Source of the DNA: Nautiliaceae bacterium
GTDB taxonomy: Bacteria > Campylobacterota > Campylobacteria > Campylobacterales > Nautiliaceae
Assembly: GCA_027011225.1 (NCBI GenBank)
Contig: JALVAK010000188.1
Coordinates: 1 to 45,764, forward strand
Direction of reading: 5' to 3'
Length of the DNA: 45,764 bases
Part shown: piece by piece, positions 4,252-9,564 of the stretch
Layout: each line of letters starts with the position of its first letter
Position numbering within the stretch: the stretch's first letter is position 1
Notes under the pieces: model-generated
What the model was told of the DNA's origin: nothing
Seen by the model: the letters and a program-made list of their open reading frames with translations, nothing else
Databases searched by the model: none
Translations under genes and position numbers: made by a program

Positions 4252-5688
4252 TTATTTTATGTAAACATCTATTTTGTATGTTTGAGATAAAGTATTTAAT
4301 AAATCATTAATAAGCTCAGTATTTATCAATCCCTCAGTTAATTTTACAATATTTTGTTTATTTTTCTTAAATTCTTTTTCATCAAGTAATTTTTGCTTTT
4401 TAATTCTGTAAAGAATTGAAACATCAGGATTATTCTCAGGAATCAAAATAAAATAATTTGGATTAAAAGAAGTAAAAAGTTTTTGTAAAAATTCTATAGC
4501 ATAAGAAGGTTTTAATTCTTTTAGTTTAAATGCATCATACTTTGTAACAAAGCCAATATTTTTTCCTTTAAATGTTTTATACTCTTTTTTTGAGAGTTCT
4601 ATTAGCTTTTTGTTTAATTTTTCTGATAATAACTTTTCTATAACAAAAGGTTTTGCTTTTTCATATTTAAGCGGAGTAGGGGGCATTTCTTCAAGCAATT
4701 TTGCAATTATATAATTGTCATTATATACAAAAGGTTTTAAAATACCTTCTTTTTTTAGCTTTTGTAATTTTTCAGAAGGGATAATATTATTTGAATTATC
4801 TATAGTTACAATTTTATAAGTTGCTTTATTTGCTTTTAATTTTTTATAAGAGAGAATTGCTTTTTTAAATAATTTTTCTTTTGCTAAATCTTTTTTTACT
4901 CTATCTTTTACTTCATTAAATTCTAAAATTTCTCCGTTATAGTTTTTATATATATTTTTATTAGCTTGATAATACTTTTTTAATTCTTCTTCACTTGCGT
5001 TAATATCTAAAGGTATATTTATAAGCGCTATTTTGTATTTTTCTTTGCTTAAAAATTCATTTTTATGTTTTTGCCAAAAAGACTTAATCTCATCTTCTGT
5101 AAGATTAACTTCTAAATCCTCTTTTTTAAGCACTTTAATATCTAAATTATCTGCATTATATAGTGCTGAGCCTACACTTATAATTTCTGTATTAGTAGGT
5201 TTTAGATGCAATAGGGCTATTAATTTTTCAATAAGTAATTTTTTCCTTAGACTTTTTTCAAATTCTGCAGGTTTTAATCCAGCATTTCTTAAATACATTT
5301 TATATTTTTTATCACTTCCAAATACTTCTAAAATTTTATTAGCCACTTCTTCATCTGTTACATAAAGTCCTAAATCTTTTGCATATTGTCTAAGTATTGC
5401 ATCTTGTATTGCTCTTTGAAGTGCTAGTTTCTTTAATCCAAGTTTTTCTGCTGTAGCTTTATCTAAATTGCCACCAAATTGTTTATTAAAACTATCAAAT
5501 ATCTGATTATAAGCTTCTTGCCAATCTTGTATAGTAACTTCAGTATCTTTTACTTTTGCTACAACATTTGCTTTTTGTGAAAATTGAAATTGACCCCATC
5601 CTACAAATCCTGCACCAATAAAAGCTATTGTGGCAATCCATATTGTTATTACTAACCATTTTCTATGTGTTTGCATCCACTCAATCAT
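4252..5688 (-). CDS. membrane-anchored periplasmic chaperone, PpiD/SurA-N type
   Basis: The 478-residue protein has a short cytoplasmic N-terminus and one membrane segment at about residues 11-31. A SurA N-like helical domain follows (LGLKKLALQRAIQDAILRQYAKDLGL, split over residues 84-109), then a long Lys-rich periplasmic region. The layout matches PpiD, which helps newly exported proteins fold as they leave the SecYEG channel. I cannot see a canonical parvulin active-site signature, so isomerase activity is uncertain. A gene of this type sits upstream of ftsA in Campylobacter, as I recall. The RBS AGAGG is 6 nt before the ATG. Confidence 0.82.
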   Translation of the reverse strand: MIEWMQTHRKWLVITIWIATIAFIGAGFVGWGQFQFSQKANVVAKVKDTEVTIQDWQEAYNQIFDSFNKQFGGNLDKATAEKLGLKKLALQRAIQDAILRQYAKDLGLYVTDEEVANKILEVFGSDKKYKMYLRNAGLKPAEFEKSLRKKLLIEKLIALLHLKPTNTEIISVGSALYNADNLDIKVLKKEDLEVNLTEDEIKSFWQKHKNEFLSKEKYKIALINIPLDINASEEELKKYYQANKNIYKNYNGEILEFNEVKDRVKKDLAKEKLFKKAILSYKKLKANKATYKIVTIDNSNNIIPSEKLQKLKKEGILKPFVYNDNYIIAKLLEEMPPTPLKYEKAKPFVIEKLLSEKLNKKLIELSKKEYKTFKGKNIGFVTKYDAFKLKELKPSYAIEFLQKLFTSFNPNYFILIPENNPDVSILYRIKKQKLLDEKEFKKNKQNIVKLTEGLINTELINDLLNTLSQTYKIDVYIK

Positions 5689-5754: not shown

Positions 5755-5785
5755 AAAAAAATTCTTGGTAATAAAGGGATTTTCA

Positions 5786-7135
5786 ATGAAAAATCAAGAA
5801 ATTATGGAAATTGACTTAAAATATAACTGGCATCCATGCACTCAAATGAAAGACCATGAGTTTTTGCCACTTATTCCTATTAAAAAAGCTAAAGGTGTAT
5901 ACCTTGAAGATTTTGAAGGAAATAGATATATTGATGCAATTAGTAGTTGGTGGGTAAATCTTTTTGGTCATAGCAATGAATATATAAATTCAAAAATAAA
6001 AGAGCAATTAGAAAAGTTAGAGCATGTAATATTTGCTGGATTTACACATGAGCAGGCAATAAGACTTAGTAAGCGACTATGTAAATTAACAGGATTTGAT
6101 AAAGTTTTTTATGCTGATAATGGAAGTAGTGCGGTTGAGATTGCAATAAAAATGAGTTTTCATTATTGGAAAAATAAAGGTAAAGTTAGACCTCTTTTTT
6201 TTAGTTTAGAAAATTCTTATCATGGTGAGACAATTGGGGCTTTGAGTGTAGGAGATGTAGGGCTTTATAAAGATACCTATAAAGAGATTTTAATTAAAAA
6301 TATAACTATTCCTATTCCAAAAGATAAAAGCAAAGAAGAAACACAAAAAGCATTAAAAAAGGCTAGAGAGGTTTTTGAAAAACATTATAAAGATGTGAGT
6401 GCTTTAATTATTGAGCCACTCGTTCAATGTGCTGGATATATGAAAATGCATTCACCTGAGTTTATAAAGGGACTTAGAGAGCTTTGTAATGAGTTTGATA
6501 TACATCTAATTGCTGATGAAATAGCAGTTGGCTTTGGTAGAACTGGGAGCATGTTTGCATGCGAGCAAGCTCATATAAAGCCAGATTTTATGCTACTTAG
6601 TAAAGGTCTCACAGGTGGGTATTTGCCTCTTAGTGTAGTACTTACTACAAATGAAATATACTCAGCCTTTTATTGTGATTATACCGAGCTTAAAGCATTT
6701 CTTCACTCTCACTCTTACACTGCAAATCCTCTTGGGTGTGCTGCTGCAAATGCAACTTTAGATATATTTGAAAAAGGGAGATGGGTACAAGAGAAAGAAA
6801 AATGGAAATTAAAAATTGATAATAAAGGATTAAGTATTTTAGAATTTAATAAAAAAACAAGCAAATATATTTGGGATAGTATTCAAAAATTTAAAGACTT
6901 ACCAAATGTAAAAGAGATTCGTCAAACTGGAATGATAACGGCAATAGAGATGATTGATTATCCTTGGCAAGAGAGAGTTGGGTTAAAAGTATATGAATAT
7001 GGCTTAAAAAATGGGGTATTACTTAGACCTCTTGGAAATGTTATCTATTTTATGCCACCATATATTATTCAAAAAGATGAAATTGATAAAATGATAAATA
7101 CTGCATATGAAGGAATAAAGGCGTTAAATGATTAA
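5786..7135 (+). CDS. bioA: adenosylmethionine-8-amino-7-oxononanoate aminotransferase BioA
   Basis: BioA converts KAPA to DAPA in biotin synthesis, normally using S-adenosylmethionine as amino donor and PLP as cofactor. Visible features include the N-terminal WHPCTQMKDHE typical of BioA and the FADNGSS-like motif YADNGSSAVEIA that binds PLP phosphate. YHGETIGALS and the Asp of LIADEIAVGFGRTG are also present. The Schiff-base lysine lies in LLSKGLTGGYLPLS. The ATG at 5786 has AAAGGGA 6 nt upstream; the longer frame from TTG 5765 has no such support. The gene overlaps the downstream transporter by 8 nt. No other bio gene is in the window. Confidence 0.96.
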   Translation: MKNQEIMEIDLKYNWHPCTQMKDHEFLPLIPIKKAKGVYLEDFEGNRYIDAISSWWVNLFGHSNEYINSKIKEQLEKLEHVIFAGFTHEQAIRLSKRLCKLTGFDKVFYADNGSSAVEIAIKMSFHYWKNKGKVRPLFFSLENSYHGETIGALSVGDVGLYKDTYKEILIKNITIPIPKDKSKEETQKALKKAREVFEKHYKDVSALIIEPLVQCAGYMKMHSPEFIKGLRELCNEFDIHLIADEIAVGFGRTGSMFACEQAHIKPDFMLLSKGLTGGYLPLSVVLTTNEIYSAFYCDYTELKAFLHSHSYTANPLGCAAANATLDIFEKGRWVQEKEKWKLKIDNKGLSILEFNKKTSKYIWDSIQKFKDLPNVKEIRQTGMITAIEMIDYPWQERVGLKVYEYGLKNGVLLRPLGNVIYFMPPYIIQKDEIDKMINTAYEGIKALND

Positions 7136-8651
7136 AGAAGCTTTAAAAAATTCTTTACTTAATCCAATTAAACACTTTAAACTTAAATATTTGCCACTTT
7201 TGATGGTATATTTTGCATACGGAGCAAGTGGTATTACAGGAGTAGCTGAGACATTTTGGGTAAAAGAAGAGCTTAAACTCTCAGCCACAGCTCTTGTTAG
7301 TCTAGGGGTTTGGCTTAGTATCCCTTGGACTATAAAAATGGTTTTTGGACAACTTGTAGATAGTGTGCCAATTTTAGGCTCTCAAAGAAGAATTTATATT
7401 TATATTGGAGCAGGACTTATTGCATTAGGAGATATTTTACTTATTGGACTTGCAGGAAATTATGAGTGGGCTAAATTTGCAAGCAAAGAAAATGTTTATA
7501 TAATCTCAGCTCTTTTAACAGTTATAGGATTTGTGCTTCAAGATGTTGTAGCAGATACTATGAGCACAGAAGTAGTTGATAGAAATCAGCCAAAAGAAAA
7601 GGTTGAAGAAGAGCTTGCATATGTTCAGATTTTAGGAAGACTAGCTATTTCTCTTGCTGGAGTAATTGTAGCAGGTTTAAGCGGGTGGCTTGCTGAGATT
7701 TTTTCATATGAAACTATGTTTAAAATAGGGCTTATTATCCCTCTTATTTCAGTTATTGGTGTAACATTAGTTAAACTTGATGTAGCAAAACCAAGCCCAA
7801 TTAATTGTAAAATACTATGCGGTGGAATTGCATTTGCAGTTTTTGTAGTTTTGATGGGATATGGGCAATATCAAGAGTGGCATAATAAAATATTAGCTTT
7901 TATTTTTAAATATTCTCAAGAAATTGTATTTATTGTGAGTTTAAGCGTAATTGTATATATGTTAAGCTTAGTTTTAAAAGATGTGAATGAGCAAATAAGA
8001 AAATTTATAGTAAAAACTGCAATAGTTATTTTTGTATATCGTGCTATGCCAAGTGTGGGTCCGGGGCTTCAATGGTGGGAGATAGATGTATTACATTTTG
8101 ATAAAGCATTTTTTGGGACTTTATCTCAAATTGGAGCAATTCTCTCAATCCTTGGAATGTGGCTATTTAGTGACTTTATTGCTAAAAAACCGGCTCATTA
8201 TACGTTACTTTGGCTAACCATTATTACAACCATTTTATTTTTACCAATAATTGCTCTATATTACAATATTCCTCAAAGTTTAGGAATTTCACCAAAAGCA
8301 GTAGCTTTAATTGATACAGCACTAGAATCACCTTTTGCACAACTTAGTATGATACCACTTCTAACTCTTATAGCGATATATGCACCTGAAGGGAATAAAG
8401 CTACTTGGTTTGCTCTAATGGCAAGTTTAATGAATTTAGCTTTAACTGCTGGCGGACTTCTTACAAAATATCTAAATGAGCTTTTCCCAGTTTCAAGAGA
8501 GGTTGTAGAAAATGGCAAAATCATAATTCCAATGGATTATTCAAATCTTGGCATTTTAATGATAATAGTGACTATCCTAAATATTACAGTACCTATAGTT
8601 ACAATTTATTACTTGATGATTAGAAATTCATCTAAAATTAACAATAGTTGA
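7128..8651 (+). CDS. BT1/folate-biopterin-type MFS transporter
   Basis: This is a polytopic membrane protein of about 507 residues with roughly 12 hydrophobic segments. The opening (YLPLLMVYFAYGASGITGVA) and the loop PWTIKMVFGQLVDSVPILG resemble the BT1 (folate-biopterin transporter) branch of the major facilitator superfamily, which is also related to PucC. The substrate cannot be read from sequence. Its ATG lies inside the end of bioA (ATGATTAA, 8-nt overlap), so translation is probably coupled to bioA. That makes a biotin-pathway pterin- or carboxylate-like substrate possible, but this is inference. The downstream htpX has its own promoter. Confidence 0.72.
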   Translation: MIKEALKNSLLNPIKHFKLKYLPLLMVYFAYGASGITGVAETFWVKEELKLSATALVSLGVWLSIPWTIKMVFGQLVDSVPILGSQRRIYIYIGAGLIALGDILLIGLAGNYEWAKFASKENVYIISALLTVIGFVLQDVVADTMSTEVVDRNQPKEKVEEELAYVQILGRLAISLAGVIVAGLSGWLAEIFSYETMFKIGLIIPLISVIGVTLVKLDVAKPSPINCKILCGGIAFAVFVVLMGYGQYQEWHNKILAFIFKYSQEIVFIVSLSVIVYMLSLVLKDVNEQIRKFIVKTAIVIFVYRAMPSVGPGLQWWEIDVLHFDKAFFGTLSQIGAILSILGMWLFSDFIAKKPAHYTLLWLTIITTILFLPIIALYYNIPQSLGISPKAVALIDTALESPFAQLSMIPLLTLIAIYAPEGNKATWFALMASLMNLALTAGGLLTKYLNELFPVSREVVENGKIIIPMDYSNLGILMIIVTILNITVPIVTIYYLMIRNSSKINNS

Positions 8652-8657
8652 TATAAT
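8652..8657 (+). promoter_or_regulatory. -10 promoter box for htpX
   Basis: TATAAT lies directly after the stop of the BT1-type transporter and 26 nt before the htpX ATG. It suggests that htpX is separately transcribed, as expected for a membrane-stress protease. Confidence 0.55.
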
Positions 8658-8682
8658 ATAACTAAAAAAAATGGAGGCAAAA

Positions 8683-9564
8683 ATGGCAATTTTAATGCTA
8701 ATTTTGATGAATATTGCTGTAATGGCATCAATTTATTTCTCGTTGTTTTTAATTGAGCTTATTTTTGGAGTAAGGATTGACCCTCAAAGTGTAACAGGAC
8801 TTGCTATTTTAGCTGTTATTATTGGTTTTAGCGGAAGTATTATTTCACTTTTAATGTCAAAATGGATGGCAATTAATACCATGGGAGTTAGAGTTATTAA
8901 AAATCCAAGTACCGAAGCTGAGAGATGGCTGGTTGAAACTGTTGCAAAATTAGCTAAAAAAGCAAATATTCCTATGCCAGATGTGGGAGTTTTTGATGGA
9001 CCTCCAAATGCATTTGCTACAGGACCTAGTAAAAATAATGCACTTGTAGCAGTTAGTGTAAGTTTATTTGATTTAATGGACACAAAAGAAATTGAAGGTG
9101 TTATTGCACATGAAATTAACCATATAAGACATGGAGATATGATAACTATGACTTTAGTGCAAGGTGTTTTAAATGCATTGGTGTTTTTTATCTCAAGAAT
9201 TATAGCAAATATAATAGCTCCAAAAGATGAAGAAGGAAATCCAAATCCATTTGCTTATATGGCAATTTCTTTTGTACTTGAGATTGTTTTATCAATTTTT
9301 GCTACAATGATTGCAATGTGGTTTTCTAGATATAGAGAATACAAAGCTGATAGCGGGGCAGTAGAAATTGATGGTCCTTATGGAATATATTATGCTTTAG
9401 CAAAATTAGGGAAATTACCAAAAGAGAAAGTTGCACTTCCACCAGAGATGAAAGCATTTGGAATTGTTGGATTTTTAAGTGAGTTATTTTCTTCTCATCC
9501 TCCAATTGAAAAAAGACTCGAGAACATTAAAGAGACAGCAAGAAGACTAGGATATAATATTTAA
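8683..9564 (+). CDS. htpX: zinc metalloprotease HtpX
   Basis: HtpX is an inner-membrane M48 protease that degrades misfolded membrane proteins together with FtsH. It has two N-terminal membrane segments and the zinc motif HEINH (residues 143-147 of the chosen protein). A later hydrophobic pair spans the region before RYREYKADSGAVEI, where the Glu is the third zinc ligand, and the C-terminal SSHPPIEKRLENI is a classic HtpX ending. The strong site GGAGG is 5 nt from the ATG at 8683. The upstream ATG at 8671 overlaps that site and is not used here. Length (293 residues) is normal. Confidence 0.96.
   Translation: MAILMLILMNIAVMASIYFSLFLIELIFGVRIDPQSVTGLAILAVIIGFSGSIISLLMSKWMAINTMGVRVIKNPSTEAERWLVETVAKLAKKANIPMPDVGVFDGPPNAFATGPSKNNALVAVSVSLFDLMDTKEIEGVIAHEINHIRHGDMITMTLVQGVLNALVFFISRIIANIIAPKDEEGNPNPFAYMAISFVLEIVLSIFATMIAMWFSRYREYKADSGAVEIDGPYGIYYALAKLGKLPKEKVALPPEMKAFGIVGFLSELFSSHPPIEKRLENIKETARRLGYNI

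Follow-up and report, generated by a model that had tools for sequence, protein, structure and literature searches.

Does a BT1-type transporter gene that starts inside the last codons of bioA belong to biotin metabolism, or does it lie there as a matter of local gene order? The question arose in a window of 45,764 nucleotides from a vent bacterium of the Nautiliaceae (GenBank assembly GCA_027011225.1, contig JALVAK010000188.1; here, the window is the whole stretch of DNA that was analysed). The genome of the window (G000) comprises 192 contigs and 1.64 Mb, and its nearest named relatives are Nautiliaceae MAGs. The features of the locus are listed in Table 1. The reading that we favour, with a probability of roughly 0.7, is that of an ordinary chromosomal BT1-family MFS gene which, in Nautiliaceae, takes up a variable slot after bioA, and for which a biotin-specific role is not indicated.

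Table 1. Features of the bioA-BT1-htpX locus, with positions in the window.
Feature	Position	Strand	Basis
ppiD-like SurA_N/rotamase protein, divergent to bioA	4252..5688	-	Pfam; order in other families
bioA, adenosylmethionine--8-amino-7-oxononanoate transaminase	5786..7135	+	TIGR00508 539 bits, cut-off 405; PF00202
BT1-family MFS transporter, 507 aa	7128..8651	+	PF03092 122 bits, cut-off 22; TIGR00788 98.8 bits, cut-off 216.4
bioA end / BT1 start overlap, 8 nt, frames differ	7128..7135	+	sequence and ORFs
TTGATATAAT, likely extended -10 of htpX	8648..8657	+	TGNTATAAT in 13/19 Nautiliaceae loci; shuffle counts
htpX membrane protease	8671..9564	+	PF01435; NF003965 330 bits, cut-off 245

Gene junctions on both sides of the transporter

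As the original prediction had it, the ATG of the transporter (7128) sits within the final codons of bioA, whose stop codon ends at 7135, and the profile matches in Table 1 bear out both the bioA and the BT1 assignment. The feature had been taken to begin at 7110, but the BT1 ORF begins at 7128; the longest bioA ORF has an alternative start, TTG, at 5765. The two genes had also been described as translationally fused. This was ruled out: the reading frames differ, and bioA and BT1 therefore yield two polypeptides, which may at most be translationally coupled. In a census of the window with a crude gene set of ATG ORFs, 12 of 32 same-strand neighbour pairs overlap and 22 lie within 20 nt of each other, and the bioA-BT1 overlap is no more than the chance expectation for this genome. 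Among the 13 Nautiliaceae relatives in which the two genes are adjacent, the gap between them is -8 nt (three times), -14 nt (twice), 0, 35, 47, 60, 64, 65, 113 or 149 nt. The proposal that bioA and BT1 form a two-gene unit is plausible within the genus, the genes being close, on the same strand and followed by a separate htpX promoter. The overlap itself is retained in only 5 of these 13 relatives.

An internal-promoter scan of the region for hexamer pairs returned 23 promoter-like sites where 15.3 were expected; none was a clear BT1 promoter. A motif common to three relatives (G013, G017 and G018, loci L050, L043 and L049), AGAGTAATMTTATTATGT, directly follows the bioA stop and may be a promoter or regulatory site of BT1.

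At the other end of the transporter gene, the BT1 stop codon TGA falls inside TTGATATAAT. Within 90 nt upstream of htpX, TATAAT was present at 18 of the 19 Nautiliaceae loci (exception: G016) and TGNTATAAT at 13 of the 19, the window included; TGNTATAAT is kept there although the spacing between BT1 and htpX varies. In the window, TTGATATAAT occurs 5 times against 0.69 expected (a count reached by 1 of 100 shuffles) and TGNTATAAT 15 times against 5.84 expected (reached by 0 of 100 shuffles), the latter excess fitting promoters in general. No -35 hexamer fitting TTGATATAAT was found in the hexamer-pair scan, and for this reason the site is absent from the output of that scan. A separate promoter for htpX, as originally predicted, is plausible, its motif being conserved. 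The true start of htpX is likely the ATG at 8683, which is preceded by GGAGG. In the arrangement that we propose, BT1 would probably be transcribed by read-through from the bioA promoter, its translation may be coupled to that of bioA by the 8-nt overlap, and htpX would then be transcribed from its own promoter.

Gene order in Nautiliaceae and in other lineages

All but one of 20 Nautiliaceae relatives have the transporter. The adjacency table excluded tblastn matches below 40% identity, and also G001, a genome that is 70% complete and in which the transporter was not found. bioA and BT1 are adjacent in 13 of the 17 relatives that could be judged and separated in four, two more being undecidable. 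In two of the four (G009, G010), bioA still lies beside ppiD and BT1 is gone as a neighbour; in G013, a GGDEF gene is inserted between bioA and BT1; and in G019 (L064, L044), a full-length transporter copy follows dedA, while a second, C-terminal fragment adjoins htpX. This last genome may hold a duplicate or contamination, so that its classification as separated is ambiguous and perhaps reflects a second copy. Adjacency of ppiD and bioA was seen in 15 of 15 relatives. The firmer neighbour of BT1 in Nautiliaceae is htpX, with adjacency in 17 of 19 (loci including L045, L047, L050 and L052; apart in G010 and G014) versus 13 of 17 for bioA. Pairs farther to the right are poorly kept (htpX-dedA 0/16, mfs2-suhB 1/12, suhB-duf72 3/11). 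Since these pairs are much less stable, bioA-BT1 belongs to a stable stretch, and some selection for keeping the two genes together in Nautiliaceae is possible.

Across the phylum, the transporter was detected in 21 of 397 genomes. In none of the 14 transporter-bearing genomes examined outside Nautiliaceae (G022, G032, G049, G084, G096, G245, G295, G296, G330, G357, G379, G408, G415 and G436) does it lie beside bioA, its neighbours there being other genes: bioA is on another contig in ten, at least 257 kb away in three (G084, G295, G296), and G245 has no bioA above cut-off. Two further Sulfurovum loci, L016 and that of S. mangrovi (L117), likewise have no bioA at the transporter. With linkage to bioA seen in one family and in 0 of these 14 outside genomes, the conserved linkage that would mark a biotin-pathway transporter was not found.

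The surroundings of bioA itself were taken for 19 of 25 genomes outside Nautiliaceae (L114, which is not a bioA region, was left out). At 12 of these 19 loci, ftsZ-ftsA-ppiD is followed by a divergent bioA; this order, which the ppiD gene next to bioA marks in the window, is older than the bioA-BT1 pairing. The genes after bioA outside Nautiliaceae, checked with Pfam, code for a DUF72 protein, RsmH (MraW), a ThiF-family protein, an ion channel and an MFS_1 transporter, and bioA is overlapped by the genes for DUF72 (4 nt), rsmH (4 nt) and ThiF (19 nt). Because the occupants of this position vary, BT1 appears to be the gene that, in Nautiliaceae, fills a variable slot behind an old bioA position, which suggests that bioA-BT1 is local gene order and not evidence for biotin handling by the transporter. 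The original step from coupling to a carrier of biotin, a precursor or the BioA by-product is not supported, given the lack of linkage in all 14 outside genomes, the overlap of bioA by unrelated genes in three other lineages and the retention of the bioA-BT1 overlap in few of the adjacent relatives.

The transporter has characteristic surroundings of its own in some lineages. At Sulfurovaceae-type loci (L056, L087-L090, L094, L095, L117), it is followed by HAD hydrolase and 2-oxoacid:ferredoxin oxidoreductase genes, neighbours present in 7 of the 14 outside genomes; these families were assigned by a Pfam check for L087, by annotation for S. mangrovi and by eye for the others. At L055, the transporter gene overlaps a gene for an S-adenosylmethionine (SAM)-using tRNA methyltransferase. 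The alphaproteobacterial relatives (L116, L118) are on plasmids among stress-type genes, with universal stress protein, phosphoketolase, acetate kinase and Spy/CpxP at the Bradyrhizobium locus and serine protease, Hsp20 and universal stress protein at the Ruegeria locus.

Family, fold and relatives of the transporter

The match to PF03092 extends over profile positions 5-413 of 432, which places the protein in the BT1 family, and a profile search found no other PF03092 match in the genome of the window. It differs from the folate/biopterin subfamily, lying far below the NCBI curated cut-off of TIGR00788 (Table 1), as do six relatives (three from Campylobacterota and those of S. mangrovi, Bradyrhizobium and Ruegeria), which score 47 to 88 bits. 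An alignment of 26 of the 30 transporter sequences (L050 and L070 were left out for want of a start codon, L065 and L068 because their genomes are already represented by L012 and L014) has 69% mean column identity, with conserved blocks that include QDVVADTMSTEVV and TWFALMASLMN. A plasmid-encoded BT1-like transporter of Bradyrhizobium septentrionale, annotated as a folate/biopterin family MFS transporter, has conserved blocks in common with the window protein and is 48% identical to it over 96% of its length, so that a bacterial BT1 subgroup can be recognised; its gene neighbours differ from those in the window.

An AlphaFold2 model of the transporter (pLDDT 79, pTM 0.79) is predicted to adopt an MFS fold with, by inspection, about a dozen membrane-length helices. 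In the full-length PF03092 match and the predicted MFS fold, the protein is like the BT1 family as represented by Slr0642 of Synechocystis and Leishmania BT1, FT1 and AdoMetT1. Foldseek returned 386 PDB matches at E 0.001, of which the best was the muropeptide permease AmpG (9j9z_A, E 2.7e-9, TMq 0.55), and VIA-align gave Z scores of 24.2 for the folate carrier SLC19A1 and 27.4 for the drug pump NorA. As carriers of drugs, organic anions, monocarboxylates, monoamines, sugars, peptides and folate align at similar Z, the fold names no substrate. A sequence search of solved structures with the transporter yielded no match at E up to 1.

An identity as AmpG was considered and ruled out by family models: the window protein matches no AmpG model at E 0.001, whereas E. 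coli AmpG matches TIGR00901 (496 bits) and the AmpG equivalogs. What the two proteins share is the Foldseek match and a weak BLASTP similarity (26 bits, around a QD..D motif); many unrelated MFS proteins equal or exceed AmpG in fold likeness.

Alternating access is the usual transport cycle of MFS proteins, and by its predicted fold the transporter probably carries some small organic compound over the inner membrane in this manner. In the literature searched, as far as its text was accessible, no substrate of a Campylobacterota BT1 protein was found. Judged by family, a folate- or pterin-like cofactor compound is the likeliest cargo; according to the accessible part of PMC1971073, both Slr0642 and its homologue from plants transport folates when produced in E. 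coli. We hold this assignment as tentative and on balance doubtful, because the protein scores so far under the folate/biopterin model.

Candidate roles of the transporter

The genomic background for biotin and folate was evaluated by profile cut-offs. Of the 46 genomes screened for bioA, 40 had a match above cut-off, and the corresponding counts were 32 of 35 for bioB, 11 of 12 for bioD and 33 of 35 for folP; bioF-like proteins were matched in 12 of 12 genomes, none above the bioF cut-off, and BioY was above cut-off in 0 of 27. Since the biotin genes and folP are present, neither vitamin is obviously scavenged, and folate scavenging in place of lost synthesis is unsupported given the folP counts. 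In the genome of the window, bioA, bioB, the bioF-like gene and bioD lie on four separate contigs, and in the single-contig genome G008, bioA is at approximately 1.05 Mb, bioF and bioB at 0.08-0.09 Mb and bioD at 0.40 Mb; in neither genome does bioA belong to a cluster of biotin genes. With the biotin genes scattered in this way, bioA stands alone, and what lies next to it says little about biotin function. Two sequence irregularities were seen among these genes. At G030:C1:373331-375871, the best bioA-like matches on that strand come in separate pieces, one with an in-frame stop, which suggests a broken bioA, and at G013:C2:54353-55352, a bioF-like gene is split across two reading frames, by a frameshift or a sequencing error.

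That the transporter carries biotin or one of its precursors (KAPA, DAPA, dethiobiotin), the overlap setting its amount relative to BioA, is a reading to which we give very little weight. The overlap in the window and in five adjacent relatives, together with the prevailing adjacency in the family, would agree with it, and Nautiliaceae genomes without BioY above cut-off leave room for an unknown biotin carrier. It is opposed by the lack of bioA linkage outside the family, by the overlap of bioA with unrelated genes in other lineages and by the retention, if scattered, of bioA, bioB, bioD and a bioF-like gene in the genome of the window; moreover, bioA is widespread and the transporter rare, so that biotin synthesis works without it. 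Transport of SAM, or of the keto by-product of SAM released by BioA, appears slightly less probable still. BioA does score as a SAM-using equivalog, the transporter gene overlaps that of a SAM-using methyltransferase in one other lineage (L055), and one BT1-family member, AdoMetT1 of Leishmania, carries SAM, according to the accessible parts of PMC6794121 and PMC5114424. These Leishmania FBTs are, however, distant, substrates differ within the FBT family (PMC5114424, accessible part), and most other neighbours of the transporter, such as the HAD and 2-oxoacid:ferredoxin oxidoreductase genes, have no link to SAM.

The stronger adjacency of BT1 to htpX than to bioA, and the stress genes around the Bradyrhizobium and Ruegeria relatives, could also point to an envelope- or stress-linked unit of transporter and htpX with bioA as a bystander. 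We consider this unlikely: htpX has its own promoter motif, the two genes are apart in G010 and G014, tblastn of the flanks revealed no htpX beside the transporter at eight outside loci (L012, L014, L016, L054-L058), and the alphaproteobacterial stress context comprises two loci. Slightly less probable is a reading in which the BT1 proteins of this subgroup in Campylobacterota and Alphaproteobacteria form a separate kind of bacterial carrier. Their substrate would be a novelty within the BT1 family, such as SAM, one of its by-products or an intermediate of the biotin pathway, and the coupling to bioA would arise only in organisms whose biotin synthesis is limited by this substrate.

For the favoured reading of an ordinary BT1-family gene in a variable slot, the locus holds a caution: in genomes as compact as these, genes routinely begin within the one before them, and such a start assigns no substrate. 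If the biotin link were true after all, organisms that lack a recognised BioY would gain a named carrier for a precursor of the vitamin. Either way, a conserved bacterial BT1 subgroup is now marked out, the cargo of which is open to direct testing.
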